Positions 3,768 to 38,519 of a DNA stretch of 64,000 nucleotides are shown piece after piece. A program made the position numbers and the translations under genes. Origin of the DNA: Mariniflexile litorale. Its GTDB lineage: Bacteria > Bacteroidota > Bacteroidia > Flavobacteriales > Flavobacteriaceae. Every line of letters starts with the position of its first letter. The first letter of the stretch is position 1. The notes beneath the pieces were generated by a model. It was not told the DNA's origin, did no database searches, and was given only the letters and a program-made list of their open reading frames with translations. The stretch spans positions 62,001 to 126,000 of the forward strand of contig NZ_CP155618.1 of NCBI RefSeq assembly GCF_031128465.2. The letters run 5' to 3'.

Positions 3768-3928
3768 TATATAATAGAAATTGTAAATGAACACCTTTTA
3801 ATTTGCTTATAAAAAAAATACTTTTTTATACAAATTTGTATTTTTAACTAATTATGAATATTTTTTATCAACCATTTAAATAAGCTGCATATCACCTTTG
3901 AATAATAAAAACAGAGAAAATATTAAAT

Positions 3929-4552
3929 ATGAAAACACCAAATAAGGACATCATATTTCCATTAGAAAATTATAATAAACTTTGTTTTTTAAAAAATATA
4001 ATTACTAATCCTAATATCATAATTGGAGATTTTACTTATTATGATGATTTTGAGAATGTAAATAATTTTGAAAAAAACGTTAAATATCATTTTGATTTCA
4101 TTGGAGACAAATTAATAATAGGAAAATTTTGCATGATTGCTTCAAATGTGACATTTATAATGAACGGAGCAAATCATTTAACAAAATCAATAAGTTCGTT
4201 TCCTTTTGCTATTTTTGGAGAAGATTGGAAAGATGCAATGGATGGCAAAAATTATCCAACAAAAGGGAATACCGAAATTGGGAATGATGTATGGATTGGA
4301 TTTAATTCGACAATTATGCCTGGTATCAAAATTGGAGACGGAGCAATAATCGCAACAAATTCAACCGTCACAAAGGATGTAGAACCCTATTCAATTGTTG
4401 GAGGAAATCCAGCAAGAGAAATTAAAAAGAGATTTACAAAAAAGCAAATTGAAAAATTACTAGAGGTTAAATGGTGGGATTGGGAAATTGAAAAAATCAC
4501 AAAGAATGTACAAAATCTTACTGGTGAAAATATAGAAAACCTTATTGTTTAA
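3929..4552 (+). CDS. Vat/CatB-like xenobiotic O-acetyltransferase
   Basis: 207 residues of the left-handed beta-helix (hexapeptide) acyltransferase family. It uses acetyl-CoA to acetylate a hydroxyl, as in streptogramin A (Vat) or chloramphenicol (CatB) inactivation. Visible hallmarks are the NGANH segment with the expected catalytic His83, then GNDVWIGFNSTIMPGIKIGDG, then GGNPAREIKKRF and the KWWDWEIEKI tail. All are in the order and spacing of Vat enzymes, and the length is normal. It is a solitary gene ending in a strong terminator. Whether it confers streptogramin resistance or acts on another alcohol cannot be told from sequence. Confidence 0.85.
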   Translation: MKTPNKDIIFPLENYNKLCFLKNIITNPNIIIGDFTYYDDFENVNNFEKNVKYHFDFIGDKLIIGKFCMIASNVTFIMNGANHLTKSISSFPFAIFGEDWKDAMDGKNYPTKGNTEIGNDVWIGFNSTIMPGIKIGDGAIIATNSTVTKDVEPYSIVGGNPAREIKKRFTKKQIEKLLEVKWWDWEIEKITKNVQNLTGENIENLIV

Positions 4553-4629
4553 CAATTTAATAAACGAACGAATAACCGTTTAGCATTCCATACGGTTTAC
4601 ATCTTTTTCACATAAGTTTTAGAGCCAAA

Positions 4630-4661
4630 AAGCTAGGTCTTTCGACTTGGCTTTTATTTTG
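4630..4661 (+). terminator. Intrinsic terminator of the acetyltransferase gene
   Basis: A 10-bp stem pairs AAGCTAGGTC (4630-4639) with GACTTGGCTT (4644-4653), including two G-T pairs. The loop is TTTC, and a T-rich tract runs to 4661. It lies 77 bp after the Vat-like stop codon. Confidence 0.75.
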
Positions 4662-4795
4662 TTAAACCAAAAGGTCACTACAAAAGTATGCTTAATTTGT
4701 AATTAAAGGCAGTTTTAATCAATGGTTAAGCATCTTATTTACAGATATTAATATAACACAATCCATATTACTTTCTTTTATAAATTTTTATTCTT

Positions 4796-33033: not shown

Positions 33034-33044
33034 AAGAAAAAACA

Positions 33045-33116
33045 TACAGATTCAACAGATAAACGCAGAAAAATTAGAGTCAAAAAAATCAGCGAAGATC
33101 TTTGTGATCTGTGGGA
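33045..33116. repeat. Palindromic repeat element, copy A
   Basis: The left arm at 33045-33069 (ACAGATTCAACAGATAAAC core) and right arm at 33089-33116 (ATCTGTGGGA end) are imperfect inverted copies. They belong to the same family as copies B and C around the GxxExxY gene. The element fills the TolC-adaptor spacer. No coding capacity. Confidence 0.6.
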
Positions 33117-33133
33117 AACAAAAAATATAAAAC

Positions 33134-34030: not shown

Positions 34031-34929
34031 GTATTATAGTTTCTAACATATCAAAATCTTACAAAAGCGTAAAAGCTTTAGAGAACATTTCTTTTGAAGT
34101 AAAAGAAGGGGAGCTTTTTGGACTTATTGGTCCGGATGGCGCAGGTAAAACAACATTGTTTAGAATTTTAACAACGCTGTTAATTGCTAATGAAGGCTCT
34201 GCAACGGTTGCTTATTTTGATGTGGTTTCAGACTATAAAAAGATTCGTAATAATGTTGGCTATATGCCAGGAAAGTTTTCTCTCTATCAAGATTTAACGA
34301 TTGAAGAAAACTTAAATTTCTTCGCAACCATTTTCGGAACCACCATTCAAGAAAACTACGATTTAATAAAAGAAATTTATGTTCAAATAGAGCCTTTTAA
34401 AGAGCGTCGTGCTGGTAAATTATCTGGTGGAATGAAACAAAAGCTGGCTTTATGTTGTGCTTTAATTCATAAACCAAAAGTGTTGTTTTTAGACGAACCA
34501 ACAACAGGAGTTGATCCAGTGTCGAGGAAAGAATTTTGGGACATGCTAAAACGTTTGCAGCAAAAAGGTATTACCATTTTAGTATCTACACCATATATGG
34601 ATGAAGCTGCTTTGTGTGATAGAATTGCATTAATTCAAAACGGTAAAATTTTACAGATTGATACACCTCAAGCTATTGTCAAACATTACCCAAAGCAAAT
34701 TTATAACGTACGTGCAAATGATACGTATCAATTACTCAATAGTTTAAATGCCTACAAACATAACCATAGTGTGTATCCTTTTGGTGAATTTGTACATTAT
34801 ACTGATAGTAGAGAAGATTTTAATCCGAAAGATTTAATAGACTATTTAGAGTCTAAAAACTTATCGAATATAAAAATAGAAAAAACCGAACCAACCATTG
34901 AAGATACCTTTATGGAATTAGCTAAATAA
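34027..34929 (+). CDS. ABC exporter ATPase, like the N-terminal half of YbhF
   Basis: 300 residues from ATG 34027, which overlaps the adaptor stop (ATGA). The frame extends to 34009 inside the adaptor gene. Walker A GPDGAGKTT, with the Asp typical of the YbhF N-terminal half, the signature LSGGMKQKLALC, Walker B VLFLDEPTTGVDP, and an H-loop position occupied by TPYMDEA (Pro instead of His: STPYMDE). The missing H-loop His suggests a degenerate ATP site. The stop overlaps the start of the second ATPase gene. In E. coli both are one protein; here they are separate genes. Confidence 0.88.
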   Translation: MSIIVSNISKSYKSVKALENISFEVKEGELFGLIGPDGAGKTTLFRILTTLLIANEGSATVAYFDVVSDYKKIRNNVGYMPGKFSLYQDLTIEENLNFFATIFGTTIQENYDLIKEIYVQIEPFKERRAGKLSGGMKQKLALCCALIHKPKVLFLDEPTTGVDPVSRKEFWDMLKRLQQKGITILVSTPYMDEAALCDRIALIQNGKILQIDTPQAIVKHYPKQIYNVRANDTYQLLNSLNAYKHNHSVYPFGEFVHYTDSREDFNPKDLIDYLESKNLSNIKIEKTEPTIEDTFMELAK

Positions 34930-35657
34930 TGAAAAACGAAAACGTCATAGAAGCTCAAAATTTAACCAAAATGTTTGGTGATTTTACAGCAGTAAATGCC
35001 ATTTCTTTTAAAGTTAAAAAAGGAGAAATATTTGGATTTCTAGGAGCCAATGGAGCAGGAAAAACAACAGCGATGAAAATGCTAATAGGCATTTCTAAAC
35101 CAACTTCAGGAGCTGCTAAAGTAGCTGGATTTGATGTATTTACTAATGCAGAAGATATCAAGAAGAACATTGGTTATATGAGTCAGAAATTTGCTTTATA
35201 TGATGATTTAACGGTTAAAGAAAACATTACATTCTTTGGCGGAATTTATGGTTTATCAAGAAAAAGTATCAAAGAGAAATCTACAATTTTAATAGAAGAG
35301 TTAGGACTAGAAAAGGTGGCGAGTAAATTAGTAGGTTCCTTACCATTGGGTTGGAAACAAAAACTATCCTTTTCGGTGTCTTTGCTTCACGATCCTAAAA
35401 TTGTGTTTTTAGATGAGCCAACAGGTGGAGTCGATCCAATTACGAGACGTCAGTTTTGGGAAATGATTTACAAAGCAGCCAATCAAGGCACAACCGTTTT
35501 TGTAACTACGCATTATATGGATGAAGCTGAGTATTGCGATCGTGTGTCTATAATGGTAAACGGAAAAATTGAAGCTTTGGATACACCTAAAAAGCTTAAG
35601 CAACAGTTTAACGTTGCCAATATGAATGATGTGTTTTTAAAACTAGCAAGAGGATAG
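34929..35657 (+). CDS. ABC exporter ATPase, like the C-terminal half of YbhF
   Basis: 242 residues. Walker A GANGAGKTT, Q-loop YMSQKFALYDDLTV, signature LPLGWKQKLSFS (degenerate LSGGQ), Walker B IVFLDEPTGGVDP and an intact H-loop TTHYMDEA. The two ATPases therefore have complementary weak points: the first lacks the H-loop His, and the second has a degenerate signature. This is the pattern of a heterodimer with one catalytic site (inference). It shares the A of its ATG with the previous stop. Confidence 0.88.
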   Translation: MKNENVIEAQNLTKMFGDFTAVNAISFKVKKGEIFGFLGANGAGKTTAMKMLIGISKPTSGAAKVAGFDVFTNAEDIKKNIGYMSQKFALYDDLTVKENITFFGGIYGLSRKSIKEKSTILIEELGLEKVASKLVGSLPLGWKQKLSFSVSLLHDPKIVFLDEPTGGVDPITRRQFWEMIYKAANQGTTVFVTTHYMDEAEYCDRVSIMVNGKIEALDTPKKLKQQFNVANMNDVFLKLARG

Positions 35658-35663
35658 AGAATT

Positions 35664-35735
35664 TCCCGCAGATTTCTCAGATTTTCGTAGAAAAGGACTT
35701 AAAAAAATCTGCGTTTATTCGCGAGATTTGTGGGA
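35664..35735. repeat. Palindromic repeat element, copy B
   Basis: The 28-bp left arm (35664-35691, starting TCCCGCAGATTTC) and right arm (35708-35735, ending GATTTGTGGGA) are complementary at 18 of 28 positions. It starts 6 bp after the second ATPase gene and ends 16 bp before the GxxExxY gene. Confidence 0.7.
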
Positions 35736-35751
35736 GTAAAATCAAATAATT

Positions 35752-36138
35752 ATGGAAGATAAAACAGAAAACGACATTTCATATATAATCAGAGGAGCAA
35801 TTTTTAAAGTCTATAATGAATTAGGCCCGGGTTTATTAGAGTCTGTATACGAAGCTGTTTTAATGTATGAATTAGAGAAGCAAGGGTTATCTCTTAAAAA
35901 GCAAGTACCATTGCCTGTATTTTATGATGGTATTGAATTTGAAATAGGCTTTAGATTGGATTTATTAGTAAATAATAAAGTGATAATCGAAATTAAATCG
36001 GTAGAAACTTTGTCTAAAGTACATCACAAACAAGTTTTGACTTACTTAAAAATTTCAGAATTAAAACTAGGCATTTTAGTGAATTTTAATGTAGAGGATA
36101 TAACAAAAGGAATTTTCAGAAAAGTAAACGGTTTATAA
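35752..36138 (+). CDS. GxxExxY protein (PD-(D/E)XK nuclease fold, PF13366)
   Basis: 128 residues. The name-giving motif is GLLESVY near residue 27. The nuclease-like core is FRLDLLVNNKVIIEIKS, whose Asp and E-x-K match the PD-(D/E)XK pattern, followed by KVHHKQVLTYLKISE. The length is normal and the gene looks intact. No biochemical role is established for the family. It lies inside an exporter operon between the ATPase and permease genes, flanked within 6-16 bp by palindromic copies B and C, and has no obvious link to export. It is probably an inserted unit. Confidence 0.88.
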   Translation: MEDKTENDISYIIRGAIFKVYNELGPGLLESVYEAVLMYELEKQGLSLKKQVPLPVFYDGIEFEIGFRLDLLVNNKVIIEIKSVETLSKVHHKQVLTYLKISELKLGILVNFNVEDITKGIFRKVNGL

Positions 36139-36144
36139 AAAATA

Positions 36145-36282
36145 TCCCGCAGATTTCACAGATCTACCCAGAAAAAAGTAAGAATAACTGTTAAAATAAA
36201 CTGTGGTTATTTGCGAAATCAGTAAGAAACCAAACAGAGTAACAAACAAAAAAATCTGCGGTAATCAGCGAAATCTGCGGGA
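36145..36282. repeat. Palindromic repeat element, copy C
   Basis: The 28-bp left arm (36145-36172, starting TCCCGCAGATTTCACAG) and right arm (36255-36282, ending GCGAAATCTGCGGGA) are complementary at 22 of 28 positions. They are separated by 82 bp that contain a further degenerate GCGAAATC copy. It starts 6 bp after the GxxExxY stop and ends 8 bp before the permease ATG. Confidence 0.75.
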
Positions 36283-36290
36283 AATAAAAA

Positions 36291-37397
36291 ATGAAAAGAT
36301 TCATAGGCTTCATAAAAAAAGAATTCTACCACATTTTTAGAGATAGACGCTCGTTGTTTATACTCTTCGGAATGCCAATAGCACAAATTATGCTATTTGG
36401 TTTCGCGATTACCAATGAAATAAACAATGTAGATATTGCAGTTTTAGATCATTCTAAAGATGCAACAACAAAAGAAATTATTAATAAGATTTCAACTTCA
36501 AAATACTTTAGTATCAATCAATTCATTGACAGAGAAGCAGATATTGAAACTATTTTCAAAAAAGGAAAAGTAAAAGCAGTTTTAAATTTCGAGGAAGGTT
36601 TTAGTAAAAACTTAATTAAAAACAACAAAGCAACTATCCAAATTATTACAGATGCAACAGATCCAAATACTGCAAATACGATAAGTAATTATGTCAACGC
36701 CATTCTTCAACAGTATCAAAAAGGATTGAATAAACACATCACCATTGCCTATCAAATTGTACCAGAAACAAGAATGGTTTATAATCCAGAATTAAAAAGT
36801 GTATACATGTTTGTTCCTGGCGTTATGACTATTATTTTAATGTTAGTTTCCGCAATGATGACCTCCATTTCTATTACAAGAGAAAAAGAATTAGGAACCA
36901 TGGAAATCCTTTTGGTATCACCAATAAAACCAATTCAAGTTATTATTGGTAAAGTATTTCCGTATATTTTTCTATCTATTATAAACGCCATTGTCATTGT
37001 TGTTTTAAGCATATTTATATTTAAAATGCCAGTTCAAGGAAGCTTGTTTTTATTAGCTTTTGAAAGTGTTTTATTCATAATTACAGCATTAGCTTTAGGT
37101 ATTTTAATCTCAACAATTTCTGCGACACAACAAACAGCCATGATGATTTCTTTAATGGGATTAATGCTACCAGTAATTCTATTATCAGGTTTTATTTTTC
37201 CAATCTCAAGCATGCCTTTACCATTGCAAGTGATTAGTAACATCATTCCTGCAAAATGGTTTATCATCATCATAAAAGGGATTATGCTAAAAGGTGTAGG
37301 ATTGCAATATTTATGGAAAGAAACCTTGATTTTAGTCGGAATGACTATCTTTTTTATTGGATTAAGTGTAAAGAAATATAAAATTAGACTAGAATAA
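36291..37397 (+). CDS. ABC-2 type exporter permease (YbhS-like)
   Basis: 368 residues. It has an N-terminal membrane helix (LFILFGMPIAQIMLFGFAI), a large periplasmic domain (about 45-170), and five C-terminal helices starting at MFVPGVMTIILMLVSAMMTS. The ABC-2 signature REKELGTMEILLVSPI is visible. It forms a heterodimer with the next permease, and the genes abut (stop 37397, start 37398). It corresponds to YbhS/YbhR, which export cationic drugs in E. coli; the substrate here is unknown. Confidence 0.88.
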   Translation: MKRFIGFIKKEFYHIFRDRRSLFILFGMPIAQIMLFGFAITNEINNVDIAVLDHSKDATTKEIINKISTSKYFSINQFIDREADIETIFKKGKVKAVLNFEEGFSKNLIKNNKATIQIITDATDPNTANTISNYVNAILQQYQKGLNKHITIAYQIVPETRMVYNPELKSVYMFVPGVMTIILMLVSAMMTSISITREKELGTMEILLVSPIKPIQVIIGKVFPYIFLSIINAIVIVVLSIFIFKMPVQGSLFLLAFESVLFIITALALGILISTISATQQTAMMISLMGLMLPVILLSGFIFPISSMPLPLQVISNIIPAKWFIIIIKGIMLKGVGLQYLWKETLILVGMTIFFIGLSVKKYKIRLE

Positions 37398-38519
37398 ATG
37401 AAAATAATTTTATACATCATACAAAAGGAGTTCAAGCAAATATTTAGAAATAAAGGCATGCTTCCTATCATTTTTGTTTTACCATTATTACAGCTTGTTA
37501 TATTATCGAATGCTGCTACATTTGAAGTAAAAAATATCAAATTTGGTTATATTGATAATGATCATACATCAACATCTAGAGCGTTAGTTGAAAAATTTAA
37601 TGCATCTACTTATTTTAATGTTTTAACAGATTTTCCTTCCGAAGCATTAGCAAATTCTTCGATGTTAAAAGGAGAAGTGGATGTGCTTTTACAAATTCCA
37701 CACTATTTTGAACGCGATTTACAAAAAGAAAAACATAACAATTTAGGCGTAACAATAAATGCGATTGATGGCGCAGCAGCAGGTGTTGAAAATGTATATA
37801 TCACACAAATTGTACAACGCTTTAATCAAAACATAAAAGTAGATATATTGCAAGTTTCAGATAAACAAATACAACCAATTGCTATAGAGACTATTCCATT
37901 ATTTTGGTATAATAAAACTTTAAATTATAAAACCTTTATGGTTCCTGGCATACTGGTTTTACTAGTAACCATGATTACGCTCTTCCTTTCAGGAATGAAT
38001 ATTGTCCGCGAAAAAGAAATTGGTACCCTAGAGCAAATCAACGTTACTCCAATAAAAAAAAGTCAGTTTATTATTGGAAAACTTTTTCCGTTTTGGGTTA
38101 TAGGAATGGGTTTACTAACTGTTGGCTTAATTTTAGCAAAAGTCATTTTTAATATTCCAATAATTGGGAGTTTACCACTCTTATATTTATACACATCTAT
38201 TTATATTTTAGTGATTTTAGGAATCGGTTTATTCATTTCCAATTTTACAAACACACAACAACAAGCCATGTTTATAGCTTGGTTTTTTACTGTTATTTTT
38301 ATTTTAATGAGTGGTTTATTTACACCTATAGAAAGTATGCCAAAATGGGCGCAAACCATAACAGAATTTAATCCAATAAAATATTTTGTAGAAGTGATGC
38401 GTATGGTGATGCTTAAAGGTTCTGGTTTTATGGATATTCTTCCGCAGTTATTAAAAACATTGCTCTATGCTTTTATTATGAATGCTTTAGCCGTTTGGAG
38501 TTATAAAAAAACAAATTAA
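37398..38519 (+). CDS. ABC-2 type exporter permease (YbhR-like)
   Basis: 373 residues with the same topology as the preceding permease. It has one N-terminal helix, a periplasmic domain, and a C-terminal bundle beginning MVPGILVLLVTMITLFLSG, with the signature REKEIGTLEQINVTPI. It is the last gene of the TetR-TolC-adaptor-ATPase-ATPase-permease-permease operon. It begins directly after the previous stop, so translation is coupled. Confidence 0.88.
   Translation: MKIILYIIQKEFKQIFRNKGMLPIIFVLPLLQLVILSNAATFEVKNIKFGYIDNDHTSTSRALVEKFNASTYFNVLTDFPSEALANSSMLKGEVDVLLQIPHYFERDLQKEKHNNLGVTINAIDGAAAGVENVYITQIVQRFNQNIKVDILQVSDKQIQPIAIETIPLFWYNKTLNYKTFMVPGILVLLVTMITLFLSGMNIVREKEIGTLEQINVTPIKKSQFIIGKLFPFWVIGMGLLTVGLILAKVIFNIPIIGSLPLLYLYTSIYILVILGIGLFISNFTNTQQQAMFIAWFFTVIFILMSGLFTPIESMPKWAQTITEFNPIKYFVEVMRMVMLKGSGFMDILPQLLKTLLYAFIMNALAVWSYKKTN

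Follow-up and report, generated by a model that had tools for sequence, protein, structure and literature searches.

The window considered here is a stretch of 64,000 nucleotides from Mariniflexile litorale (C1:62001-126000 of a 4.52 Mb genome in a single contig), in which a small gene of the GxxExxY family lies inside an export operon. According to its scores, the product belongs to TIGR04256 (146.5 bits, cut-off 35) and to PF13366 (PDDEXK_3; 145.5 bits, cut-off 22). The preliminary description had placed this gene between ATPase and permease genes, with palindromes 6-16 bp away; ORF positions and family scores bear out the first statement, and the sequence gives distances of 16 bp on the 5' side and 6 bp on the 3' side. 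A hairpin-framed GxxExxY gene in a gap of an export operon is confirmed (Table 1).

Table 1. Positions, in the window, of the GxxExxY gene, its neighbours and the associated hairpins and arms
Feature	Position	Strand	Remarks
Third hairpin, gene-free	33042-33118		-14.2 kcal/mol; z -2.6; 3/200 shuffles as stable
ABC transporter ATPase (upstream neighbour)	34929-35657	+	PF00005, 98 bits
5' hairpin	35660-35737		-26.3 kcal/mol; z -4.0; equal stability in 1/200 shuffles
5' arm of whole unit	35661-35691	+	Iterated CGCAGAT-type words; pairs with 36255-36285
GxxExxY gene	35752-36138	+	128 aa; predicted PD-(D/E)XK nuclease fold, nearest Cas4/RecB-type nucleases; TIGR04256, PF13366
3' hairpin	36140-36286		147 nt; -43.1 kcal/mol; z -8.5; 0/200 shuffles as stable
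3' arm of whole unit	36255-36285	+	Complementary words; ends 5 nt before next start codon
ABC-2 permease (downstream neighbour)	36291-37397	+	PF12698, 177 bits
Second ABC-2 permease	37398-38519		Follows first permease

Both palindromes flanking the gene are real, although they match less evenly than had been described, the downstream one being much longer with 82 nt between its arms. The outer arms of the two also pair with one another across the gene, as an inverted repeat of 31 nt (84%). A third copy without a gene had been reported in the same operon; it is present, at a junction between genes that we take to be TolC-like and HlyD-like, but is clearly weaker and more diverged. Among nine relatives with both neighbours of this junction, all of them with GxxExxY-bearing operons, the gap measures 8-12 bp in five and 77-387 bp in four. 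The pattern GCGNAATCTGCGGGA has four sites in the window at up to three mismatches (1.18 expected, four being reached by 2 of 100 shuffles), and genome-wide it gives 12 matches at up to two mismatches versus three for the backwards control; at no more than one mismatch the genome holds four sites, three of them in this operon. No clear target-site duplication was found at the ends of the unit; the filled junctions of the window type in three loci (L023, L027 and L028) repeat ATGA plus a few A, in an A-rich region where part of the repeat is dictated by the stop and start codons.

Two further observations concern similar repeats. In a Formosa genome (L025, 566-957), the presumed TolC/HlyD junction is filled by three similar repeats with ATCTGCGGGAAATAAAACAAG. 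Elsewhere in the genome of the window, palindromic repeats with inverse word order, of the AGTGGGATAAT...ATTATCCCACTGATT type, occur near C1 positions 3527500, 2056570 and 204570 (L017, L018 and L020); these differ from the window arms in word order and look like a separate family.

In an alignment of 25 unbroken GxxExxY sequences (30 minus five broken copies), G27, E30, Y33, E80, K82, Q94 and Y98 are invariant and D70 is nearly so (at least 90%), and both the family signature and the PD-(D/E)XK residues are conserved. The predicted structure of the window protein (pLDDT 94.8) has as its best solved-structure match 4ic1 (SSO0001; E 9.2e-4, Z 9.3, rmsd 3.5, 98 aligned), which we take to be a Cas4-family nuclease. 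This match is modest support, because best Z values of 7-8 are common without true kinship; the fold list also has a Holliday-junction resolvase (1gef, Z 6.5) and a structure titled as an fdxN element excision controlling factor protein (2okf, Z 5.8), both with scores of the size regarded as common. A profile search of solved-structure sequences found nothing significant (best E 0.072), PADLOC gave weak matches only (best PDC-M36A at E 0.0024, with two Cas4 at E 0.011 and 0.017), and PHROGs gave phrog_1706, annotated as 'CRISPR/Cas system associated', at E 1.4e-5. A fold near the Cas4/RecB and lambda-exonuclease type is predicted with modest support, and the protein is a putative nuclease; to our knowledge, GxxExxY proteins have no established role. 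The accessible part of the full-text literature (including PMC8934634) yielded no tie between the GxxExxY/PDDEXK_3 family and flanking hairpins.

The distribution of such flanks was studied with a flank score, defined as the best local match between the 270 bp upstream of a gene and the reverse complement of the 250 bp downstream. Eighty-five GxxExxY loci were scored, namely 56 of 72 listed matches, left after removal of the weakest 16 (mostly fragments), plus the whole of another listing of 29. Their median is 29, versus 19 for arms paired across loci, 18 for shuffled flanks, 20 for window ORFs (n=45) and 19 for neighbour ORFs (n=146). Scores of at least 27, the 95% level of all 191 control ORFs, are found at 57 loci, and scores of at least 31, the 95% level of the cross-locus pairs, a fairer control in which non-coding composition is kept, at 36; the loci below these cut-offs number 28 and 49, respectively. 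In a second set, made of the best 30 loci from 247 Bacteroidota genomes (122 of which hold the family) and including three near-copies, the same two levels are reached by 22 and 18 loci, with a median of 32 versus 19 across loci; the neighbour control of this set, of 27 ORFs only, has its 95% level at 40, which 7 of the 30 loci attain. Palindrome enrichment at GxxExxY genes, as the preliminary description had led us to look for, is therefore seen in both sets as inverted flanks that are commoner than at other ORFs.

Read by eye, the 5' arm is made of two to four repeats of a short word, the complement of which makes up the 3' arm. The word differs by locus, being CGCAGAT in the window unit and CGCAAAG, CACAGAG, CACGAAT, CACGGAT or a rarer one elsewhere; five classes, defined after the flanks were read, accommodate 74 of the 85 loci. 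The sense word stands on the 5' side and its complement on the 3' side in 64 of the 85, versus 17 with the opposite arrangement. Mapped on a tree of the 85 proteins, word, recurrent gene context (slot) and genome require 10, 3 and 32 changes, respectively; if the unclassed rows are treated as a sixth class, the word requires 17 changes, versus 49.1 on average after shuffling (none of 200 shuffles gave so few), a clustering that is inflated by near-copies among the loci and is not seen in the CACGGAT class. When each of the 74 classed loci is compared with its closest protein relative from a different genome and a context that is not homologous, the two agree in word in 60 cases (in 1000 permutations, 19 on average and 32 at most), and related proteins in unrelated contexts are up to 81% identical. 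Pairs within one genome have a common word in 8 of 23 cases (chance 26%), that is in none of 13 at less than 45% protein identity and in 8 of 10 at 45-60%. Because the word is common to nearest relatives from other genomes and contexts and rarer in same-genome pairs, the arms would be tied more closely to the lineage of the protein than to the host; the effects of host and clade can be separated only in part, because of the frequent sharing by same-genome pairs at 45-60% identity. In this comparison, a protein clade tends to keep its word in unrelated contexts and genomes alike.

Iterated words in variable number might also be produced at operon junctions when replication slips and switches template, with a hairpin nuclease kept to clear or repair the resulting arms. 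The predicted fold, near exonucleases of the Cas4/lambda-exonuclease type, would suit such a role, and arms do match best within their own locus: the median match is 30 for own arms, 24 for cross pairs with the same word and 19 for those with another word, and the own-arm match exceeds half of the same-word pairs at 52 of 74 loci and nine tenths of them at 29. We nevertheless consider slippage an improbable origin, which leaves unexplained both the association of word and clade across genomes and the fact that the arms border the gene.

The preliminary description had compared the arrangement with REP elements mobilised by RAYT transposases, and there are likenesses, namely short imperfect palindromes and the existence of gene-bearing and gene-free copies. 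In its strict form the analogy fails: the words follow the GxxExxY clade and not the genome, and the Y1 transposase genes lie elsewhere. The genome has seven Y1 matches, none of them within the window range, and the CCGCAGAT word is found at none of the five of these loci that were read with 1500-base flanks, one of which has a single CRCAGAT match. REP palindromes bear a GTAG or CGTC tag at their end, according to the accessible text of a published account (PMC3733652); inspected by eye, the outer ends of the window's two hairpins have neither tag directly at them. Membership of the REP/RAYT group was rejected on Y1 linkage (five of the seven loci read), the low copy number in the genome and the missing end tags. 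A looser version, in which a Y1 (RAYT/IS200-like) transposase mobilises REP-type palindromes in trans and the GxxExxY gene is a passenger or bystander, could draw on the Y1 genes present in the genome and on the gene-free hairpins, but has little probability in our view given the word-clade association, the Y1 loci read and a motif that is not high-copy in its own genome. Three of the Y1 matches, at C1:2452973, 2905870 and 2953385, have identical scores and are perhaps IS200-like.

Taking the longest ORF nearby as the neighbour on each side, GxxExxY genes lie between co-directional genes in 69 of the 78 loci with both neighbours, for which the 34 of 47 window ORFs in this position are a rough baseline. 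Four contexts recur, ATPase/permease (14 loci), map/methyltransferase (14), tsaC/CCA-adding enzyme (5) and alaS/GSCFA protein (4), where the gene names other than those of the ABC genes are our own assignments from reading the sequences; under a two-sided rule, 48 of the 85 loci are in none of the four. The genome of the window has a second GxxExxY copy, which is broken (L016, C1:471773-472086); its neighbours are presumably tsaC-like and CCA-adding-enzyme-like genes, a context in which other genera also appear to carry GxxExxY copies.

Orthologues of the window junction were collected from the 30 of 149 genomes with the permease at 50% identity or more. Five of these operons contain a GxxExxY gene, so that the gene is by no means conserved in the operon of all relatives, and 12 are closed, the permease start overlapping the ATPase stop in 11 and the gap being 0 in one. 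The remaining junctions have a gene-free hairpin (one, G079), an IVP gene (one, G100), other inserts of 42-171 bp (eight) or were left uncalled (three). Empty sites in orthologous operons, which the preliminary description had suggested looking for, are available here and also at the map/methyltransferase junction, and G079, read by eye, shows that a palindrome lacking the gene can stand at this junction. Within the genus, six genomes were searched, three having the permease and five GxxExxY; the junction is filled in G149 and not in G118. Certain rows are not independent, G001 and L024 being identical in permease sequence, as are L027 and G149.

That GxxExxY might contribute to the function of the export operon is suggested by its presence at the ATPase/permease junction in several genera. 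With 22 of the 30 orthologous operons devoid of it at this junction (three more being the uncalled ones) and with the family in many other contexts, we regard this as very improbable.

A more substantial competitor is that GxxExxY is an old, vertically inherited accessory gene, with hairpins that serve the host between cistrons, by processing of the mRNA, by insulation or for stability, and with a patchiness due to repeated loss, deletion re-closing the junctions. The sense orientation suits an RNA role. At the window junction, gene and operon diverge alike (identities of 78-96% for GxxExxY and 85-97% for the permease) and the operons with the gene group together on the permease tree, with 7 changes versus a shuffled mean of 12.2; because of this neighbour-like divergence and this clustering, the window junction alone does not show transfer. 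Vertical inheritance with loss is possible there, and transfer of the whole operon would also fit.

The map/methyltransferase junction was read in 90 cases out of 145 genomes with the methyltransferase. Here 25 junctions measure 0-26 bp, 13 hold GxxExxY (two as remnants), 8 measure 31-120 bp, 39 have longer inserts and 5 are without a recognised map. Those with GxxExxY seem to be dispersed over the host tree, which is weak: on the map tree (84 rows) the 13 filled rows need 13 changes (shuffled mean 12.3), of which well-supported branches force only 4, with 48 of 81 inner branches unresolved. They also belong to two or more protein clades that differ in their words. In addition, relatives with the same word occur in unrelated contexts and 5 of the 29 copies in one locus listing are broken, all of which makes us judge the vertical explanation unlikely. 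Comparison of these sequences shows that a junction can be filled, closed, occupied by a hairpin without a gene or occupied by a different unit, and that some copies decay.

The other unit is the IVP (four-helix-bundle) gene. The IVP gene in the window junction of G100 scores 67 bits with TIGR02436 and 61 bits with PF05635 and has inverted arms of its own (29 nt, 76%). IVP genes were found in 118 of 149 Flavobacteriaceae genomes; taking the best match in each of 30 genomes, 15 of the 30 loci have a flank score of at least 27 (median 27 versus 18 across loci), and the gene stands between co-directional genes in all 29 loci with both neighbours. At one locus (L177, G039:C3:45293-45613), it lies between genes that we take to be groES and groEL. 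The IVP family, which is unrelated to GxxExxY, shares with it the anatomy (in 15 of the 30 loci), the type of junction and, in G100, the very junction, so that the phenomenon is wider than the preliminary description proposed.

IVP proteins are also those of intervening sequences (IVS) in 23S rRNA. In Coxiella burnetii, according to the accessible text of one article (PMC4990558), the IVS has a 28-bp terminal stem with an S23p/IVP ORF in the loop, and tandem GACAGAT heptamers, two or three by strain, just upstream of this ORF; it is excised by RNase III, and S23p is argued probably not to be produced in Coxiella. The same source terms the IVS a selfish element, with origin, function and mobility unclear as of 2016 (PMC4990558). 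As far as this partial account allows the comparison, the window unit resembles the rRNA IVS in its terminal inverted repeats, in the ORF in the loop and in the short words before this ORF. It differs in lying between protein genes and not in an rRNA helix or gene, and in encoding a GxxExxY nuclease-fold protein that is unrelated to IVP (PF05635). The part of the literature that could be searched, mostly open access and without bioRxiv preprints, contained no description of intercistronic GxxExxY or IVP hairpin units.

A second comparison is with homing insertions. In the accessible portion of a study of CPR bacteria, LAGLIDADG proteins of elements inserted in rRNA genes cluster by site even in distant hosts, and the elements are patchy, with related proteins at other sites too (PMC11270868). 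GxxExxY units are similar in their patchiness and in having related proteins at other sites. Their proteins may also group by insertion site in distant hosts: the protein tree has 3 slot changes, the map tree forces only 4 of its 13 changes on well-supported branches, and presence at the window junction is clustered by permease. Unlike the LAGLIDADG elements, the GxxExxY units have a protein of PD-(D/E)XK fold, predicted near Cas4, and are inserted between cistrons.

On balance, we find it somewhat more probable than not that the GxxExxY gene and its two arms form a mobile, or recently mobile, IVS-like unit at a stop/start junction and that the encoded protein is the partner of this unit. The most likely mechanism would be a homing-like, nuclease-driven spread, and we infer movement, cleavage and RNA processing of the unit. 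The unit would copy itself into the same junction of other hosts and would now and then enter a new one, the nuclease of Cas4/RecB fold recognising its own arms, the junction DNA or both and starting the transfer. Pairing of the arms in single-stranded DNA or mRNA would make the gene the loop of a long hairpin, and sense insertion between cistrons would spare the host genes and borrow the operon promoter.

A broader proposal, which we put forward tentatively and which could nearly as well be right as wrong, is that these units represent a widespread class of selfish intercistronic hairpin units at the stop/start junctions of conserved bacterial operons. The class would involve at least two unrelated proteins (GxxExxY and IVP), words co-evolving with the protein and homing-like spread, and the rRNA IVS, which have been known for decades, would be a special case in which the insertion fell within an rRNA helix. 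If gene and arms do move as one, many small genes annotated as 'GxxExxY' or 'four helix bundle' would represent a single kind of mobile element; filled and closed junctions would then be natural test material, and a recognition code between protein and hairpin could be read from word versus clade.

Two minor observations may be added. The 39 of 90 map/methyltransferase junctions (L193-L282) with other inserts of more than 120 bp may point to a general insertion hotspot. In Aequorivita (L029, about 3781-4704), CGCAGAT-type hairpins form a tandem array around the GxxExxY gene.
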